From Aestuariirhabdus litorea (GTDB lineage: Bacteria; Pseudomonadota; Gammaproteobacteria; Pseudomonadales; Aestuariirhabdaceae), in contig NZ_QWEZ01000001.1 of assembly GCF_003864255.1 (NCBI RefSeq), positions 1,116,001 to 1,180,000 of the forward strand: a DNA stretch of 64,000 bases. The letters run 5' to 3'. Numbering within the stretch: the first letter of the stretch is position 1; every line of letters begins with the position of its first letter. Of the stretch, positions 2,177 through 36,690 are shown one piece after another. The notes under the pieces were generated by a model. The model saw only the letters and a list, made by a program, of their open reading frames with translations, was not told the origin of the DNA and searched no databases. The translations under genes were made by a program, and so were the position numbers.

Positions 2177-3001
2177 TTAGCTCTCGGTATTGAAAGGGGG
2201 CGGTATGGCGGTCGCATCGCGCTTGACCTGGCGGGGCGACTCGGGCTTGACCTTGGGACGGTAGAGGTGAGCCTGCTCCTCACGGTAGAGCCAGGAGTCA
2301 TCGAACTGGGCCGGGTCCAGCACCTCACCCACCAGAATCAGTGCGGTGCGATTGATTTTTGCGCGTCGTACCTGCTCGACGATATCGTTCAGGGTGCCGC
2401 GGATCAGCTGTTGCTCGGGCCAGCCGGTGCGATAGCAGACCGCCACCGGGCAGTCGGCACCATAGTGGGGAATCAGCTCCTCGACGATCTTGTGAATGCG
2501 GGTGATTCCCAGGTGAATCGCCAGGGTCGCCCGGTGCCGGGCCAGGGAGGCCAGGGATTCCGCCTCCGGCATCGGCGTTTTGCCTGCGTAGCGAGTGAGA
2601 ATCACCGTCTGGGCGACGCCGGAGAGGGTCAGCTCGTTACCCAGGGCCGCTGCCGAGGCGCTGGTCGAGGTGACACCGGGCACCACTTCGTAGTCGATCC
2701 CGAGGGCTTTCAGGCGGCGGATCTGCTCGCCGATGGCGCCGTAGAGAGAAGGGTCGCCGGAGTGGACCCGCGCGACCGACTCACCCCGCTCATGCGCCTG
2801 CACTATTTGGGCGATGATCTCGTCAAGGTGGAGGGAGGCGGTATCGATCACTCGCGCCCCGGGCATCGCCTCGGACAGGAGCTCCACCGGCACCAGCGAG
2901 CCCGCGTAGAGGATCACCGGACAACTGCGGATCAGGCGTTGGGCCTTGAGGGTGACCAGCTCAGGGTCACCAGGGCCGGCGCCGATAAAATAGACCTTCA
3001 T
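2177..3001 (-). CDS. cobM: Precorrin-4 / cobalt-precorrin-4 C11-methyltransferase
   Basis: This SAM-dependent tetrapyrrole methylase (CobM/CbiF, 274 residues, usual length about 250-270) methylates C11 of the macrocycle. The N-terminal AGPGDPELVTLKA loop and VHSGDPSLYGAIG near residue 80 are the conserved methylase motifs; the block VVPGVTSTSASAAALG is characteristic of CobM. The ATG overlaps the cobJ stop by 4 bp (ATGA), indicating translational coupling. The C-terminal 25 residues are basic and proline-rich and look like a non-conserved tail. Sequence alone does not show whether the substrate carries cobalt; CbiD and CbiG in the same cluster hint at the cobalt-containing route. Confidence 0.93.
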   Translation of the reverse strand: MKVYFIGAGPGDPELVTLKAQRLIRSCPVILYAGSLVPVELLSEAMPGARVIDTASLHLDEIIAQIVQAHERGESVARVHSGDPSLYGAIGEQIRRLKALGIDYEVVPGVTSTSASAAALGNELTLSGVAQTVILTRYAGKTPMPEAESLASLARHRATLAIHLGITRIHKIVEELIPHYGADCPVAVCYRTGWPEQQLIRGTLNDIVEQVRRAKINRTALILVGEVLDPAQFDDSWLYREEQAHLYRPKVKPESPRQVKRDATAIPPPFNTES

Positions 3002-3861
3002 GGCGTCTCCTCCGCGGCGTCATGCGGATTGGCCAATGGCCGGTTGGCTGACAATTTCTTGCGATAGCCGCGGGGTGTGTAGACCCAGCGTCCGTTCTCC
3101 AGAGTGCGACTTTCGCTGTTCCCCACCAGCACCAGGGTCAGCATATCCACCTCGGCGGGAACCAGCTCGGCGAGAGTAGTGATTCTTACCTGCTCGTCGC
3201 TGCGCCCAAGGTTGCGTGCCACCACCACGGGGGTAGTGGCGGGGCGATAGCCCAGCAATATCTGTTGCGCCCGCGCCAGTTGCCAGTCCCGCTGGCGCGA
3301 TACGGGGTTGTAAAAGGCGGTGACAAAATCCCCCTGGCCGGCGGCATGCAAGCGCGCTTCGATGGTCTCCCAGGGGGTGAGCAGATCGGACAGGGAGATG
3401 GTGCAGAAATCGTGACCCAGTGGGGCGCCAGTGCGGGCGGCGGCCATCTGCACGGCGGAGATACCGGGCACCACTTCCACCGCCAATTGTGACGCCTGCG
3501 CGCTGAACTCGCCGTCGAGGAGCTCAAACACCAGCGTGGCCATGGCGTAGATGCCAATGTCGCCACTGGAGATCAGGGCGGTTGATTTGCCTTCGATCGC
3601 GAGTCGGAGGGCGAGGCGGGCCCGCTCGATCTCTTCCCCCAGGGGCCGGTCGTGGTGCTGTTTACCCTCGCCCAGCTCCCCCAGCAGATCCAGGTAGAGT
3701 CCGTAGGCGACCCAATCGCTGGCGTCGGACAACGCCTTCTTTGCAGCGGGGGCAAGGTAAGCGTGGTCGCCGGGCCCGATACCCACCAGATAGAGGGTGC
3801 CGGGCAGTGAGCCGCCGTTGGTATGGGTGGCGTCAGTGACAGTGTTTACAGCATCGGTCAT
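2998..3861 (-). CDS. cobJ: Precorrin-3B / cobalt-factor III C17-methyltransferase
   Basis: This is the CobJ/CbiH tetrapyrrole methylase (287 residues) that methylates C17 and drives ring contraction. Visible motifs are LVGIGPGDHAYLAPAA near residue 25, ISSGDIGIYAMATLV near residue 97 and VVPGISAVQMAAARTGAPLG, the last typical of CobJ/CbiH. The first 18 residues are Thr/Asn-rich and could be an over-long start; I see no better ATG before the methylase core. The stop overlaps the cobM ATG. No ring-contraction monooxygenase CobG is in the window, so this enzyme may act on a cobalt-loaded substrate together with CbiG; that is inference. Confidence 0.92.
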   Translation of the reverse strand: MTDAVNTVTDATHTNGGSLPGTLYLVGIGPGDHAYLAPAAKKALSDASDWVAYGLYLDLLGELGEGKQHHDRPLGEEIERARLALRLAIEGKSTALISSGDIGIYAMATLVFELLDGEFSAQASQLAVEVVPGISAVQMAAARTGAPLGHDFCTISLSDLLTPWETIEARLHAAGQGDFVTAFYNPVSRQRDWQLARAQQILLGYRPATTPVVVARNLGRSDEQVRITTLAELVPAEVDMLTLVLVGNSESRTLENGRWVYTPRGYRKKLSANRPLANPHDAAEETP

Positions 3862-27044: not shown

Positions 27045-27132
27045 GGTGAGGTGTCCGAGTGGTCGAAGGAGCACGCCTGGAAAGTGTGTATACGGCAACG
27101 TATCGAGGGTTCAAATCCCTCCCTCACCGCCA
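27045..27132 (+). tRNA. tRNA-Ser (anticodon GGA)
   Basis: This 88-nt tRNA has an acceptor stem GGTGAGG pairing with CCTCACC, a long class II variable arm (TGTATACGGCAACGTATCGA region), the T-loop GGTTCAAATCC and an encoded CCA. The anticodon loop CTGGAAA gives anticodon GGA, reading UCC/UCU serine codons. It is followed at once by a rho-independent terminator. Confidence 0.95.
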
Positions 27133-27167: not shown

Positions 27168-27584
27168 GTTTGTGGCGCTGCGCCGCGATACCCCCCACCC
27201 TCGTTAAACGATTCCGCTGGGAGCTGTCACTCATCTGCGGCTCACCGCCACCAGCGCGATCACTCCCTTGCCGTTCATCTATCCATTGTCGCCCTCCCTG
27301 GGCGTAAACAGAATCGCTTTGATGTGGGCTAATCCCCCTTAAGAGGGCCGGAGCAGGGTGTTGACTGCCTATTTTTCTGGAAGGGTAGAGCCGCTTTAGG
27401 CCGGGCGCTTGGTCTCATGCCGCTTCTGGTCGATGATCGCAGCCAGATAGCATGGCTCTGTTCGCCTTAGTCAATCGACGGGTTGAAATCCCGGTCACCC
27501 TTTGCCTTTTCTTCCCCCTCAGCCAGGTTGCCGCGCGGCCAGTCTCAAGTTCCCCAGGGGGCTTAGAGCGTGTTCCGGACTCAG
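27168..27584. other. Gene-free region between tRNA-Ser and the first bkdA1 copy
   Basis: No coding region with family resemblance is visible on either strand in these 417 bp; the short open frames are not convincing. It is presumably the native upstream region of the bkd operon, since it abuts the first (truncated) copy of the bkdA1 leader, and may hold a promoter or activator site now separated from the intact operon. Confidence 0.5.
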
Positions 27585-27585
27585 G

Positions 27586-27601
27586 TTTACGTTTACGTAA
27601 A
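27586..27601. promoter_or_regulatory. Palindromic operator, copy A (LiuR-like)
   Basis: TTTACGTTTACGTAAA consists of perfect 7-bp arms (TTTACGT/ACGTAAA) around TT. It resembles the operators described for the MerR-family regulator LiuR of branched-chain amino acid catabolism in Proteobacteria; that resemblance is from memory. It sits about 110 bp upstream of the truncated bkdA1 copy. Confidence 0.55.
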
Positions 27602-27709
27602 AGTAGAGTACAAAGAACTCAGGTCCCTACCGGTACCGACTATTCTTACGAAAGCGCAGCCCCCAAAAGGGGCTGGGTCGCAACTGTCTAAAACAATAAT
27701 GAGGCAGCT

Positions 27710-27927
27710 ATGAGTACTTTCAACCCCGAACAGGTCGTACACCGACCTGAGTTCATCCGTGGTGATGAACTGAGCATTCCCACCCTATGCCTGGTTCAAC
27801 AGGATGGCACCCCCTATGACGGGGCTGAGCTGCCTGTGCTGGAGCAGGCCAAAGCCCTTCGAATCTATCAGGCCATGGTACGCACACGCGTGCTGGATGA
27901 GCGTATGTTGGCAGCACAGCGCCAGGG
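27710..27927 (+). pseudogene. Truncated bkdA1 (E1 alpha, first 72-73 codons)
   Basis: The first 218 bases are the same as those of the intact gene at 31,058 apart from two silent changes, encoding [15 protein letters not shown] through MLAAQRQG. The frame then enters the IS110 fragment and stops at 27,973, for an 87-residue hybrid. The TPP-binding and catalytic parts are absent, so no enzyme can be made, but the transcript from the copied leader would still be produced if a promoter is intact. Confidence 0.93.
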
Positions 27928-28260
27928 ATGGGTGTGGGTAATGCCCAGGCGTTTAGTGGCGGTCGAGAGATGACGGCTTGGATGGGGCTTGTACCGAGAC
28001 AGTACAGTACCGGCGGCAAGCCCCGATTGTTGGGCATCAGCAAGCGCGGTAACAAACGACTGCGCTGCCTGTTTGTCTACGGTGCGCGGGCGGTTTTATC
28101 GCGCCTGCACAGGGGCGAAGGGCCTTTTCATGCATGGTTGCGAAAGCTTCGAGCCAGCAAGCCGTTTAATGTGGCGGTGGTAGCGCTGGCCAACAAGCTG
28201 GCGCGCATCGCCTGGGCGATATTGACCAGTATGCAGCCATTTGATGCGAAACGAGTTTAA
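27928..28260 (+). pseudogene. IS110-family transposase, C-terminal fragment
   Basis: The 110-residue frame matches the C-terminal Transposase_20 (IS116/IS110/IS902) domain: GREMTAWMGLVPRQYSTGGK, then LLGISKRGNKRLRCLFVYGA and VALANKLARIAWAILT. The N-terminal DEDD catalytic domain is missing; the homology begins exactly where the bkdA1 repeat ends. It is therefore a remnant fused to bkdA1 by rearrangement, not a functional element. Confidence 0.88.
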
Positions 28261-28740
28261 CGAGGTTTGCAGTAGGTGTTGTTGATGATGAAAGCGGGTC
28301 AACCGCCCGGATAGAAAACCTGGCACAAAAAACAGCCATAACAGGCTTTCGGCTTTTTGAGGACTATCCGGCGCGGATACTCATCGTGGAGCGGCAGGCG
28401 AGCCTGCCAACGAGACTCCGAATACATTAGCGCAGACCACCCTCGTCATCGCACATAGCTATTGCAATAACGAGGGGAACCATACATTTTTGTTTGAGGT
28501 GACCCGTCCTGAAATAGTGTCAACCTATATCAGGACAAGACATGGGTGAGACAAACGAGGCAGTCTGAGCCCGACCCTTGTGTCAGACTTGTTTTACCCC
28601 TCTTTGTATGACCTTCTGGTGCTAGACTATACTGCGAAGCCTCAGGATTCATTGAGCGGTTTTTGAGCCCTGTGCTTTCTGCTTGATTGATGACCCTGTC
28701 TAGCCTGCCCTTTTAGCGAGGGCTGCTTTTGGAGTACAGC
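28261..28740. other. Non-coding accessory segment between IS110 remnant and sulfotransferase
   Basis: About 480 bp with no recognisable gene. The first 200 bp are probably the 3' non-coding end of the IS110-type element. An imperfect inverted repeat with 12-bp arms lies at 28,506-28,536 (GTCCTGAAATAG and CTATATCAGGAC, one mismatch), next to TGACCCGTCCTGA, which looks like the terminus of another IS element. The base composition is lower in GC than the flanking core genes. Confidence 0.45.
28506..28536. repeat. Imperfect inverted repeat, possible IS end relic
   Basis: GTCCTGAAATAG and CTATATCAGGAC form 12-bp arms with one mismatch around TGTCAAC. The preceding TGACCC is typical of IS3-like ends, but no transposase for it remains, so this is at most a relic. 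Confidence 0.4.
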
Positions 28741-29706
28741 ATGAAGAACGACTCCCGGCCTGTCTTTATCGTTGGTGCTCCGCGATCTGGGACCACGCTG
28801 CTTCAGTATATGTTGAGGTCGCATCCTAACCTTTCTCTGCCTACCGGCGAGTCCCACTTTTTCATACCTCTGTTCACGCATGCTGAGCGTTGGGGCGATC
28901 TTGCCCAGGCCGGTCAGGTGAAGGCGTTATTAGCCGAGATGTACCGGCGCAGTGCAGAATTTCTGGACACCGATCTTCACGGCCTCAGGTTCGATATCGA
29001 CTCCCTGAGCGATGAGATCGTTACTCAGGGATTGGTCACCGTTCCCGATATCATCGACTTTATCTATACCAAGAATGCCAAGGGGGAGGGCAAGCAGCGC
29101 TGGGGTGATAAGACACCTTACTATGTGTTTCACATGCCGACGATTTTGCAGATGTTTCCCGGGGCGCAATTTGTTCACCTAATCCGTGATGGACGTGATT
29201 GCGCTCTGTCGTTGATCGATCGCAAAGACGATTTTGGGGTTTACAACCTGCATTTCGCCGGCCGTTATTGGAAAGAGTATGTTGATCGCGGGCGAGAGTC
29301 GGGGGCTCAGTTGCCTGATGGTAGCTATCTTGAGGTCAAGTATGAAGAACTCATCAGCCAACCGAAGTTGTCAGTTGCTAAGATTCTGGCCTTTTTGGGG
29401 GAGCAGTATCATACCGATGTGATTGAGTTTCGAAAGTCGTCACTTGCCCCTGAGGAAAGTAAAACCCCTCTTCTGTCACGCTCCATTGATGCCGCCAACA
29501 AGGAAAAGTGGAGACTGAAGATGAGCCCTTGGGGTATTCGTTTATTTGAAAGTGCTGCGGGCAGAACTCTGACCGCCAGCGGTTACGCCCTTGAGACCAG
29601 CGAGCATGAGTTGCCGCTGCCGATTCGAGCCTGCTACCGCCTGCATAATCAGGCGGTGCGCCGGTTACGGCGTTACTGGCGTGCCTGGCAAACGAGAGCA
29701 TTATAA
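28741..29706 (+). CDS. Sulfotransferase family protein
   Basis: This 321-residue protein has the PAPS-binding motifs of the Sulfotransfer_3 family: FIVGAPRSGTTLLQYMLRSH at the N-terminus (5'-phosphosulphate loop) and FVHLIRDGRDCALSLIDR near residue 145 (3'-phosphate binding). It would transfer sulphate from PAPS to an alcohol or amine acceptor such as a glycan or lipid; the acceptor is unknown. ATG at 28,741 follows GGAG by 6 bp. The gene is less GC-rich than its neighbours and lies between two transposase remnants, both signs of transfer. No sulphate-activation or glycan genes are near. Confidence 0.85.
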   Translation: MKNDSRPVFIVGAPRSGTTLLQYMLRSHPNLSLPTGESHFFIPLFTHAERWGDLAQAGQVKALLAEMYRRSAEFLDTDLHGLRFDIDSLSDEIVTQGLVTVPDIIDFIYTKNAKGEGKQRWGDKTPYYVFHMPTILQMFPGAQFVHLIRDGRDCALSLIDRKDDFGVYNLHFAGRYWKEYVDRGRESGAQLPDGSYLEVKYEELISQPKLSVAKILAFLGEQYHTDVIEFRKSSLAPEESKTPLLSRSIDAANKEKWRLKMSPWGIRLFESAAGRTLTASGYALETSEHELPLPIRACYRLHNQAVRRLRRYWRAWQTRAL

Positions 29707-29742
29707 CCTTGGCAGATTATTTTCATGTAGCAAAAGAGCTAG

Positions 29743-30909
29743 GAAACCTGCGAACAAGTTCCAATTTCATGACCGCCCAACCTGACAACGGTTTAACGAC
29801 CGTTTTCCGGTTATAACCGGCCCAGTTGAGCTCTTTTCCCTCTGTCTGGGAGACCGTTTTCCAGTCTCCAGACGGAGTTACCCCTTAAAAGCGCACTCGA
29901 CTACATACCCTGACTACGTTTGCCAAGGCAAACAGGATCGAGAGCTTGTTATCGCTTTTCTTCAAGCCACGATAGCGGGTTTTCCTGACACCAAACTGAC
30001 ATTTGATCACCTGAAAAGCGTGCTCGACCGGTGCTCGCAGGCTGGATTTTTAGTATTCCATCTCCAGCTCATGTTTGTTGATTCTAGGATGCTTGCGCAG
30101 TGCCTTTACTTTCGACGGTATCTGCGCGATCTGCCATTCGAAATCTTTTCCCCTTGACCCTATACGGCCATCAACCCCTCGATAGCTAGAGTCAGCGTAC
30201 ACATATTTTTTTGTGCTATGAAGAAGGAGCTGTGCTTGGGTCACGTCATTGACGTTGGCCGCTGTGGTTTTAACGCTGTGTTCCAGTTCAGAGATCAAAT
30301 CAGCACCAATGTTGGCCTTCATGCCAAAATACCACTGGTTGCCTTTACGAGTCTGGTGCATCTCCGGGTCGCGCTCACCTGTACGATTTTTAACGGAGCT
30401 GGAAGCGTCAATGATAGTGGCGTCCATCAGTGTGCCTTCGCGCAACAACACGCCGGCCTTCTCAAGCCATTGATTGATTTCTTCGAGAATTTTTCGACCC
30501 AGCTGGTGACGTTCAAGCAGGTGCCGGAACTTCATGATGGTGGTGTGGTTCGGGATCGGCTTGTTAAGTGACATGCGAGCAAAGAGTCGCATGCTGGCGA
30601 TATCATAGAGAGCGTCTTCAGCGGCCGTTATACCACTGTTGGAGAAAATGAATCCTCAGTATGGTCTCCAACGGGTAGGGGCGGCGACCGTTACCCGCTT
30701 TAGGGTAATAGGGCTCAATCACGGCCTCCAAGCGCTCCCAGGGGATGATCAGCTGCATACGCTCAAGGAAAATCTCTTTGCGTGTTTTGCGGTGCTTCTT
30801 TTGAAACTCACTGTCGCCGAAGGTCAGTTGATGGGCCATGCAGCTGAATCCAATGCCGAGGAAAGGTATGAGCTATTGTCTCATGGTTAGGGACTTGTTC
30901 GAAGGATCC
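29743..30909. mobile_element. IS5-family insertion sequence (1,167 bp) with CTAG target duplication
   Basis: The ends are inverted repeats matching at 16 of 20 positions: GAAACCTGCGAACAAGTTCC at the left and GGATCCTTCGAACAAGTCCC at the right, read inward. Both ends are flanked by CTAG (29,739-29,742 and 30,910-30,913), which fits the YTAR target of IS5-type elements. Inside is a minus-strand transposase gene very similar in layout to that of E. coli IS5, but disrupted. A strong hairpin near 29,850-29,877 (TCTCCAGAC-type arms) lies just beyond the transposase stop. Confidence 0.9.
29885..30839 (-). pseudogene. IS5-type transposase, broken by a frameshift and an in-frame stop
   Basis: The N-terminal part (73 codons from 30,839: [20 protein letters not shown] ... 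HFLQQWYN) runs out of frame at about 30,622. The middle part then continues in another frame from about 30,617 ([53 protein letters not shown]). It meets TAA right after HELEMEY at 30,050, and the C-terminal part (RAPVEHAFQVIKCQFG, then LFALANVVRV) is readable beyond it to 29,885. At the first break about 8 bp seem to be deleted relative to IS5. Two independent lesions mean the element cannot move by itself. Confidence 0.9.
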
Positions 30910-30932
30910 CTAGTATGCGCGTTAAGTGCTAC

Positions 30933-31275
30933 GTTTACGTTTACGTAAAAGTAGAGTACAAAGAACTCAGGTCCCTACCGGTACCGACTATTCTTACGAA
31001 AGCGCAGCCCCCAAAAGGGGCTGGGTCGCAACTGTCTAAAACAATAATGAGGCAGCTATGAGTACTTTCAACCCCGAACAGGTCGTACACCGACCTGAGT
31101 TCATCCGTGGTGATGAACTGAGCATTCCCACCCTATGCCTGGTTCAACAGGATGGCACCCCCTATGACGGGGCCGAGCTGCCTGTGCTGGAGCAGGCCAA
31201 AGCCCTTCGAATTTATCAGGCCATGGTACGCACACGCGTGCTGGATGAGCGTATGTTGGCAGCACAGCGCCAGGG
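30933..31275 (+). repeat. 343-bp direct repeat, copy B (intact bkdA1 side)
   Basis: This is the second copy of the segment at 27,585-27,927. Its left edge is 19 bp beyond the CTAG duplication of the IS5 element; its right edge is inside the intact bkdA1, where the sequence continues as normal coding DNA. All expression signals of the intact operon within this segment are thus duplicated, but anything upstream of the operator has been replaced. Confidence 0.95.
30934..30949. promoter_or_regulatory. Palindromic operator, copy B (LiuR-like)
   Basis: The same TTTACGTTTACGTAAA palindrome lies 109 bp upstream of the intact bkdA1 start. It is the likely control site of the bkd operon. The sequence on its upstream side differs from copy A, so a promoter element located there would not be conserved. 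Confidence 0.55.
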
Positions 31276-32242
31276 TCGCCTCAGCTTTTATATGCAGTCC
31301 ACCGGCGAAGAGGCAACCACGGTGGGATTCGCCGCAGCGCTCGAAGATGATGACATGATCATGGCCCAGTACCGCGAGCAGGGGGCTTTGGTTTACCGCG
31401 GTTTCAGCCTCGATGAGTTCATGAACCAGCTGTTCAGTAATGAACTCGATTACGGCAAGGGGCGGCAGATGCCGATTCACTATGGCTCTGCCAAGCTGCA
31501 CTACATGACCATCTCTTCTCCGCTGGCGACTCAGATCCCGCAGGCAACCGGCTATGCCTATGGGCAAAAGCTGGCCGGTTACAAGCGCTGCACGGTGGCG
31601 GTTTTTGGTGAAGGGGCCGCTTCCGAGGGGGACTTCCATGCCGCACTGAACATGGCGGCCGTTTTAAAAGTACCGGTCATTTTCCTGTGCCGAAATAATG
31701 GCTATGCCATCTCCACCCCATCGAGCGAGCAGTTTGCCGCTGATGGCATTGCGCCGCGGGCCCTGGGTTATCGAATGCATGCCATCCGTGTCGATGGCAA
31801 TGACTTACTGGCGGTCTACGGGGCGATGATGGAGGCCCGCAAGCTGGCGGTGGAGCGCAATGAGCCGGTACTGGTAGAGACCATGAGCTACCGTCTGGCG
31901 GCTCACTCCTCTTCTGACGATCCCTCGGGCTATCGTTCCAAAAAGGAGGAGGCCAAGTGGCGGGAAAAGGACCCCTTATCCCGTTTCCGTAACTGGCTGG
32001 TTGCGCAGCAGTGGTGGAGCCTGGAACAGGATGAAAAGTTGTTTGCCGATGAGCGTGAGCAGGTCCTGCGCACCCTGAAGGAGGCGGAGCACCGCCCCGT
32101 GTGTCGACTGGATGAGTTGATCACCGATGTTTATGATGAACCGACCCCTCAGTTGAAGCAGCAGCTGGAAGCGCTCAAGGCCCATATCCGCAAGTACCCT
32201 GATGCCTATCCGAAAACGGCGGGGAGGCTGGACCATGGTTAA
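31058..32242 (+). CDS. bkdA1: Branched-chain 2-oxoacid dehydrogenase E1 alpha subunit
   Basis: This is the E1 alpha subunit of the branched-chain 2-oxoacid dehydrogenase complex, which decarboxylates the oxoacids of Val, Leu and Ile with thiamine diphosphate. The 394-residue protein has the TPP motif [17 protein letters not shown] ... CRNN (residues 184-213). The regulatory loop [14 protein letters not shown] (281-294) aligns with the phosphorylation loop of the mammalian enzyme. It overlaps the E1 beta start by 8 bp. A second, truncated copy of its 5' end lies 3.35 kb upstream. Confidence 0.93.
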
Positions 32243-34854: not shown

Positions 34855-36690
34855 ATGAGCAAGCCGGACCTGCAGCGCTTTTACATTCCGGAAGAGCAGT
34901 CGATCTACCTGCTCAGCCAGAATGATGTCCGCAAGCTGAAAAACTGGGTCAGCCTGTGCCAGGCCCAGCTGGAACAGCTGGGCTACCGGCAGATCGAGCT
35001 GATCGGTAAAGGCGCGTTTGGGTTTGTGTTTGGCGGTGTCGACCCGGACCGGCGCCCACTGGTCTTCAAATTCTCACGCATCACACTGCCCCAGCACGTT
35101 CAGGACCGCCTCGAGGAGGAGTCCTACATGCTGGGGCAGGTATCACACCCCAACGTGCCCCGCCTGATCGCATTCCAGCGAATTCGCCGGCAGGCGATTT
35201 TGGTGATGGAACGAGCGCCCGGCATCGATCTTGAGCAACTGTCGTTGCAGGAGGGGCGGCTCTCGCCTCGACGCATCCTGGATTTTGCACGCCAGCTGCA
35301 CGCAATCCTGGCGGGGTTGCGCGGAGAGGCGGTCAGTAGTGGCCGCCTGGTCGTGCACGGAGACATCAAGCCCTCCAATATCATGTTTGACCCCCAAAGC
35401 GAACGCCTGGCGCTCATCGACTGGGGCTCCTCGGTGTTTGCCCAGCTCGACGAGAAGCAGCAGTACGTCTCCCATAATGTGATGGAGCTGATGTCGGGAG
35501 ACCTGCACAACAGCAATGCACGGCTGGGGGATGTCTACTTTATCGGCCCGGAGCAGTTGACGGGAGCACTGTCGAGCCCACGCTTCGATGAGCAGGGGCT
35601 AGCCGCGACCCTCTATGCGCTGGCTTCGGGTCAGTCGTGCCGTTTTGGTTACCGCGCCATTCCGCCCACGGCGCTGGGGCTGCCGGTCGAATTTGCCCGT
35701 GTGCTGACGGCGATGCTCGATGGTGACAGCGCTCAACGCGCCAAGGCGGGTGATTACTTCATGCGTAATATGCCGGCGATGGCGCGTACCCTGGTGGTTG
35801 ACCTGCCGGCCGACAGTGAACCTCACCTGATTCCGATCTGGGTGCACCACCGCGAGCATGAGATCGATACCGTCGTCTACAGCTCCCGCAAGGCGTTTTT
35901 GAAGGAGGAGGGGGCTGAGGCGGTGGTCAGGGATATCGACGATGTGCAGTTTGACCGGTACTACAAAAACTTCCTGCAGGGGATGGGGGAGACGGAGAAA
36001 GCGTTTCTGGCGGCTGTAGGCCGATTGGGAAAATATCCGGTGGTAGGCGGGCTTGCGGTGCGCTGGGAGGCGGATGGGGTTTATATCGACTCCTCCCTCA
36101 ACCTGCATGACGAGCGTTTCAGGGAGTCCTTCAGTGTCTCGGTCAATAACATGGTGACCCTGGCGCGTTCGATCTACCGACGCGGGGTGTTCAAGAGCTG
36201 CCTGTTCGATGCTCGCCGGACCCTGCACATCGACCGGGATTCGATCCATGATCCCTTTGTGCCCGATGCCGGTATGTCCATCCCCTACGAGGTGGTCGCT
36301 GCACCGACACCGGAGCTTGAGGATGGGAGCCGGGAACACTCCTACTTTGAGGACGGTAAGGACCCGGAAGAAAACCTGGTGTTGCCGCGGGAGATTGTAA
36401 TGCGGATCGCACGCCTTAACCGCATTTACCATACCGGGCTGATCATCTTTGAAAGCCTGGAAACCCACCTTAAGGTGCACAGCTATTTCAAGCTGTTGGA
36501 TCCGTCGCAGGAGGAACTGTTCAGGCGGTACCTGCACGAGATTCTGCAAGCGGTTCCCCGCATCTCAGGACTGGGGATCTCCGGCTTTATGAAAATGCCC
36601 TACAAGGATACCCGCCAGTTTACCCACATCGACCGCCTGCCTGAGCGTTTTTACCCCCGGGACCCCCGTGCAGAGGCGGCGCGCCACTAG
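34855..36690 (+). CDS. Hanks-type Ser/Thr protein kinase with unknown C-terminal domain
   Basis: This 611-residue protein has a protein kinase domain at about residues 45-310: ATP loop IGKGAFGFVFGG (50-61), VFKF with the ATP-binding Lys72, catalytic loop VVHGDIKPSNIMF (167-178; HGD for the usual HRD) and LIDWGSS (188-194; DWG for DFG). The C-terminal 300 residues (RQFTHIDRLPERFYPRDPR near the end) match no domain I know. No membrane segment is apparent, so it is cytosolic. It starts 31 bp after bkdB and is probably the last gene of the bkd operon, which suggests the E1 alpha loop as a substrate (inference). Confidence 0.85.
   Translation: MSKPDLQRFYIPEEQSIYLLSQNDVRKLKNWVSLCQAQLEQLGYRQIELIGKGAFGFVFGGVDPDRRPLVFKFSRITLPQHVQDRLEEESYMLGQVSHPNVPRLIAFQRIRRQAILVMERAPGIDLEQLSLQEGRLSPRRILDFARQLHAILAGLRGEAVSSGRLVVHGDIKPSNIMFDPQSERLALIDWGSSVFAQLDEKQQYVSHNVMELMSGDLHNSNARLGDVYFIGPEQLTGALSSPRFDEQGLAATLYALASGQSCRFGYRAIPPTALGLPVEFARVLTAMLDGDSAQRAKAGDYFMRNMPAMARTLVVDLPADSEPHLIPIWVHHREHEIDTVVYSSRKAFLKEEGAEAVVRDIDDVQFDRYYKNFLQGMGETEKAFLAAVGRLGKYPVVGGLAVRWEADGVYIDSSLNLHDERFRESFSVSVNNMVTLARSIYRRGVFKSCLFDARRTLHIDRDSIHDPFVPDAGMSIPYEVVAAPTPELEDGSREHSYFEDGKDPEENLVLPREIVMRIARLNRIYHTGLIIFESLETHLKVHSYFKLLDPSQEELFRRYLHEILQAVPRISGLGISGFMKMPYKDTRQFTHIDRLPERFYPRDPRAEAARH

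Follow-up and report, generated by a model that had tools for sequence, protein, structure and literature searches.

A duplicated bkd operon head around insertion sequence remnants in Aestuariirhabdus litorea: a possible scar of local rearrangement

Why does the start of a bkd operon occur twice in the chromosome of Aestuariirhabdus litorea, and how did the 3 kilobases (kb) of DNA between the two copies come to lie there? The question arises from a 64,000-nucleotide stretch of contig NZ_QWEZ01000001.1 (positions 1,116,001 to 1,180,000; hereafter the window, whose own coordinates are used throughout), in which the head of the operon, comprising its operator, its leader and the first part of bkdA1, is present as two direct copies. 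We lean towards reading the repeat and the block that it encloses as a rearrangement scar, in which the operon head was copied into the joint of a deletion, and which has no dedicated function. No report of this locus was found in the literature searched.

The duplicated operon head

A base-by-base comparison that defined both edges places two direct copies of 343 base pairs (bp) at a spacing of 3,348 bp, the right one within a complete operon:

27585..27927, + strand: left bkd operon head, with operator, leader and the first 218 bp of bkdA1 (repeat comparison)
30933..31275, + strand: right bkd operon head, within the complete operon (repeat comparison)
31058..32242, + strand: complete bkdA1, coding for E1 alpha of 394 amino acids (open reading frame and domain match)

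The copies are 99.4% identical across 343 bp by blastn, and a repeat finder returned 300 nucleotides in two copies at 99%. They differ at two positions, both silent: 27826 T versus 31174 C (codon 39, GCT/GCC, Ala) and 27865 C versus 31213 T (codon 52, ATC/ATT, Ile). Each includes a palindromic operator, the leader and 218 bp of bkdA1 (codons 1–73; start at 27710 in the left copy). The repeat had been described in the same terms, length, offset, silent differences and content alike, by an earlier sequence-only reading, and these comparisons bear that description out. Exact 16-base seeds revealed no further direct repeat of 40 bp or more in the 64-kb window; as the sole such repeat found there, the pair is therefore not a product of chance. 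Only the right copy extends into a complete bkdA1. The left copy stops after codon 73 and runs into a short non-bkd tail, forming an open reading frame (ORF) of 87 amino acids at 27710–27973, and could thus encode at most a fragment of that size.

Insertion sequence remnants between the copies

The DNA between the copies is a 3,005-bp patchwork of insertion sequence (IS) remnants and one sulfotransferase gene:

27928..28260, + strand: IS110-family transposase gene, 3' fragment, the upstream two thirds missing (profile match)
28261..28492, + strand: right end of that IS110-family element, non-coding (limit of homology with three further copies, 28491–28493)
28508..28542, + strand: 35-bp IS3-like remnant (exact match to the right end of copies from two further genomes of the order)
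28729..29706, + strand: sulfotransferase gene, ORF of 325 amino acids (Sulfotransfer_3, full-length domain)
29739..29742, unstranded: CTAG target-site duplication of the IS5-family element, left (read from the sequence)
29743..30909, - strand: IS5-family element with a degenerate transposase gene (DDE transposase match, ends read from the sequence)
30910..30913, unstranded: CTAG target-site duplication of the IS5-family element, right (read from the sequence)

An accessory block had been proposed here from the sequence alone; the insert of about 3 kb stands, and its content proves to be IS debris around a single sulfotransferase gene. The IS110 homology starts at the right edge of the left head (27927/27928), inside the gene. 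The fragment covers profile positions 240–342 of 343, with a score below the whole-protein cut-off, and residues 1–228 of a full-length relative have no match anywhere in the genome. A gene cut at this joint, with its front unmatched in the genome, is as expected of a deletion. The IS3-like family was named by eye from the ORFs of the matching copies. The sulfotransferase matches Sulfotransfer_3 positions 1–214 of 216 and is rare in the order, with relatives at an expect value (E) <= 1e-20 in 6 of 193 other genomes (best 52% identity).

Insertions of the IS5 family are marked by terminal inverted repeats and a 4-bp YTAR target duplication. The IS5-family copy has both features, with imperfect terminal inverted repeats at its ends (29743 and 30909) and CTAG flanking each. 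Comparison with two relatives reveals that its transposase gene is broken twice, by a frame break and by an in-frame stop. With such a gene next to repeats that differ at 2 of 343 positions, the block appears as if older than the duplication, a cue to its age that is weak. The block is single-copy in the genome except for a solitary IS5-family end of about 86 bp and 90% identity, at C1:1085113–1085197 (L037 6114–6198), which lies beside a glycosyltransferase-like ORF named by eye.

Comparison with relatives

None of the other genomes examined was found to have this arrangement. A comparison with sister strains had been proposed as a check, and was run on two congeners only, the two other genomes of the genus (G001 and G002). 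G001 has a single bkd head, with a diguanylate-cyclase-like gene upstream and no match to the block; G002 is uninformative at this point, as its bkd contig (L036, G002:C171) runs out at codon 84 of bkdA1 and the assembly lacks the operon head. The contig break in G002 lies some 30 bp beyond the point that corresponds to the end of the repeat in A. litorea, which could be chance or could reflect a similar repeat that broke the assembly. Neither congener has a match to the sulfotransferase at E <= 1e-20. Relative to G001, the two changes are divided between the copies of the repeat, one in each, a pattern that fits a copying event of fairly recent date.

More widely, a second head near bkd was found in 0 of 79 testable relatives within the flanks examined (6 kb in most), a scan that misses copies lying beyond those flanks. 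The 79 are the 80 bkd loci in named genomes minus one whose gene starts 125 bases from a contig end; for five other loci with unequal flanks, start positions were set by hand. Protein matches to the sulfotransferase, IS110 or IS5 genes near bkd were likewise found in 0 of 84 loci at E <= 1e-4.

The left flank, which holds a tRNA gene, was compared as well:

27045..27132, + strand: tRNA-Ser(GGA) on the left flank (tRNA search; not adjoining bkd in the two congeners)

In G001 and G002, cobB–tRNA-Ser and bkd lie on separate contigs with other neighbours, and the adjacency of tRNA-Ser and bkd is therefore particular to A. litorea among the three genomes of the genus. The 410 bp from the tRNA-Ser terminator to the left head (27175–27584) have no plasmid match, and among the matches listed from 94 other genomes of the order only about 16–40 bases align (best E 0.0025). 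No RNA family other than tRNA reached gathering score in the left flank. The genes that follow tRNA-Ser in G001 have no syntenic DNA match in A. litorea's own genome, where just the terminator region and one 63-base match were found; the diguanylate-cyclase-like neighbour upstream of the G001 bkd operon has 37 matches there, the best at 42% and in the C-terminal half.

How the arrangement may have formed

Under the rearrangement account, the ancestral order would have been an IS110-family element, the IS3-like end, the sulfotransferase gene and the IS5-family copy, with the bkd operon downstream. The tRNA-Ser flank would then have become joined to the interior of the IS110 gene with loss of the front of that gene, and the nearby operon head would have been copied, over 343 bp, into this joint. 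There are two joints to explain. A single template switch during replication could have yielded both; alternatively, the 3,348-bp unit may have been duplicated in tandem and the first unit then trimmed by a deletion. By either route the right copy would preserve the whole operon and the left would be a dead fragment supplying a second operator. The sequence itself displays the repeat, both joints, the truncated IS110 gene, the IS remnants and the complete bkdA1; from these we infer the order of events and the manner of joining. The copied head does match DNA nearby, on the same chromosome and in the same orientation, as a scar of this kind calls for. In Escherichia coli, complex junctions with short microhomology have been described and are read as template switching (PMC3161906).

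Several points weigh against this account. First, none of the genomes examined has an intermediate arrangement, and the parental one is in neither congener. Second, the IS5-family copy may have arrived already broken, in which case the argument from age is gone. Third, the repeat begins one base 5' of the operator, about where DNA conservation with G001 starts, a coincidence that rearrangement leaves unexplained and that fits none of the accounts well. Fourth, nothing marks either upstream flank as the ancestral one: across 68 bp, neither is more similar to the G001 flank than shuffled sequence is. The two bases immediately left of the repeat agree with G001 at 2 of 2 positions at the left copy and at 1 of 2 at the right, a very slight hint that the left flank is the native one.

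The principal alternative, suggested by the sequence-only reading, is that the head was duplicated when a 3,348-bp circle, which bore the sulfotransferase gene, a copied head and IS debris, underwent a single crossover with its chromosomal counterpart. A Campbell-type integrant of this sort is recognised by a gene fragment that is directly repeated on both sides of the inserted DNA and belongs to a complete gene on one of them. Integration of a circle gives exactly the topology observed and its product retains a complete bkdA1; the rarity of the sulfotransferase in the order and the two-base agreement at the left copy also speak for it, as does base composition, the G+C content being 0.49–0.55 in the ten 500-bp windows wholly within the block and 0.57–0.66 in those wholly outside the block and repeats. 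However, domain and profile searches recognised no integrase, relaxase or replication (replicon) gene in the block. In blastn searches with 27500–31400, each of the 15 phage records aligned only with the IS5 part (within query positions 2746–3341), and the 20 plasmid records listed, out of at least 5,000 with a match, did so in that same part alone. The donor circle would moreover have to originate in the same strain or a very close one, its head being 99.4% identical to that of the host; it would need a pre-existing head–IS110 joint and a recipient whose upstream flank was different, hence more events. Local rearrangement would explain the same joints in fewer steps and also account for the truncated IS110 gene. 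The topology of the earlier proposal thus holds and its circular origin finds nothing specific in its support; we regard integration of a circle as rather unlikely. A plasmid or phage origin of the block was rejected on the same matches, those listed for plasmids and all those for phages being confined to the IS5 part.

Transposition might instead have carried or copied the operon head. The block holds remnants of three kinds of IS, NCBIfam calls the IS110 family RNA-guided transposases, and G002 has two relatives of the IS110 part elsewhere (74–76% identical). The edges of the repeat, however, are not at IS ends: the right edge falls within the IS110 gene, while 23 bp separate the right head from the IS5 copy, which has its own CTAG target repeats. 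Transposition is already disfavoured by this geometry and seems improbable. A composite transposon, which would be bounded by two related IS copies, was also considered and rejected, as the remnants belong to three different IS families, are partly fragments, and none has its end at a repeat edge.

It is also conceivable, if quite improbable, that the repeat is an assembly artefact in which two strain variants or a chimeric read were falsely joined. The copies do differ in the way that alleles might, and the locus is judged from the assembly alone; but the joint at 27927/27928 offers no long overlap usable by an assembler, and it lies in a contig of 2.19 Mb in an assembly of 7 contigs. Least credible is a site-specific integrative element, now a remnant, with attachment repeats that restore the start of bkdA1. 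This candidate was rejected: a gene end is indeed duplicated around DNA of different composition with a tRNA gene near, but the tRNA gene lies outside the repeat, no integrase or excisionase was recognised in the block, and no second head was found within the flanks examined in any of the 79 testable relatives.

The operator and its possible meaning

The repeat doubles a putative regulatory site as well as a gene fragment:

27586..27601, + strand: LiuR-type operator TTTACGTTTACGTAAA, left copy (genome motif scan)

A scan for TTTACGTWWACGTAAA with at most one mismatch returned three sites in the genome, the two heads and C1:242315, and zero with a reversed control. The third site (L184) precedes a MerR-family gene, a candidate for LiuR, and an acyl-CoA-dehydrogenase-like gene, the latter named by eye. 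LiuR is a MerR-family repressor, and bkd is among its predicted targets in Shewanella (PMC3223726). Because the MerR-family gene shares the motif and bkd is such a predicted target, it is reasonable to regard the site at the bkd heads as a putative LiuR operator. The motif stands before bkdA1 in 4 of the 21 relatives inspected (G001, two Motiliproteus loci and L041), and in a stricter scan in 3 of 79, so the operator is not general at this operon.

Genes for E1 beta and E2 come after the complete bkdA1, and E1 and lipoyl/E2 domains were matched. The top NCBIfam model for E1 alpha is a pyruvate dehydrogenase one, with a score under its cut-off; the name bkd, which stands for a branched-chain 2-oxoacid dehydrogenase and is taken over from the sequence-only reading, agrees with the operator, and the substrate assignment is putative. 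Directly behind the E2 gene is a gene for a eukaryotic-type protein kinase (Pfam Pkinase; 34855–36690). A relative of this kinase is present in 79 of the 84 bkd loci examined, the remaining 5 ending short of that point; one of the 79 (L088) is weak, at 27% identity. Animal dehydrogenase complexes of this kind are controlled by phosphorylation, and a kinase that so constantly adjoins the dehydrogenase genes suggests, by analogy, similar control here.

The sulfotransferase gene starts 0.8 kb beyond the left head. It might be supposed that a duplicated LiuR-controlled promoter captured this gene, by read-through across the IS110 scrap, and that recombination between the repeats drops it in part of the population with bkd unharmed. 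If true, promoter capture would tie the sulfotransferase to branched-chain amino acid supply. We consider this very unlikely. The region holds 7 terminator-like sites, little more than the 4.5 +/- 2.0 expected by chance. If the copies recombined, 3,348 bp would be lost and bkdA1 left complete, as follows from the structure; deleting one repeat and the block in silico left the full-length frame of 394 amino acids and one intact operon head, as the sequence-only reading had foreseen. Beyond the doubled operator, which affects one of just two loci found in the genome with this site, the locus most likely represents ordinary genome wear, an ordinary scar beside an intact operon. It is nonetheless a clear natural case of a rearrangement that reaches the front of a metabolic operon and leaves it whole, because the complete copy retains its own operator and leader.

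Comparison with known systems

Four kinds of known system resemble parts of this locus. Of the IS110, IS3 and IS5 families, the block contains a gene fragment, an end (IS3, by eye) and a nearly whole but broken element, respectively. Unlike autonomous members of these families, none of the three appears autonomous, and none ends at an edge of the 343-bp repeat. As in a Campbell-type integrant, a repeated bkdA1 fragment flanks an insert and the gene is complete on one side; in contrast to such an integrant, no vector, plasmid or phage functions were recognised in the insert and no donor is known. The duplications and deletions attributed to template switching in E. coli (PMC3161906) share with the A. 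litorea locus the copying of nearby sequence at a non-homologous joint, whereas here the end product alone is seen. Finally, the locus recalls the LiuR regulon of branched-chain amino acid catabolism, as presented in PMC3223726 and PMC5343134, in that the same operator stands at a MerR-family gene. It differs from that regulon in that just three such putative sites were found in the genome, and in that the bkd operator is doubled.

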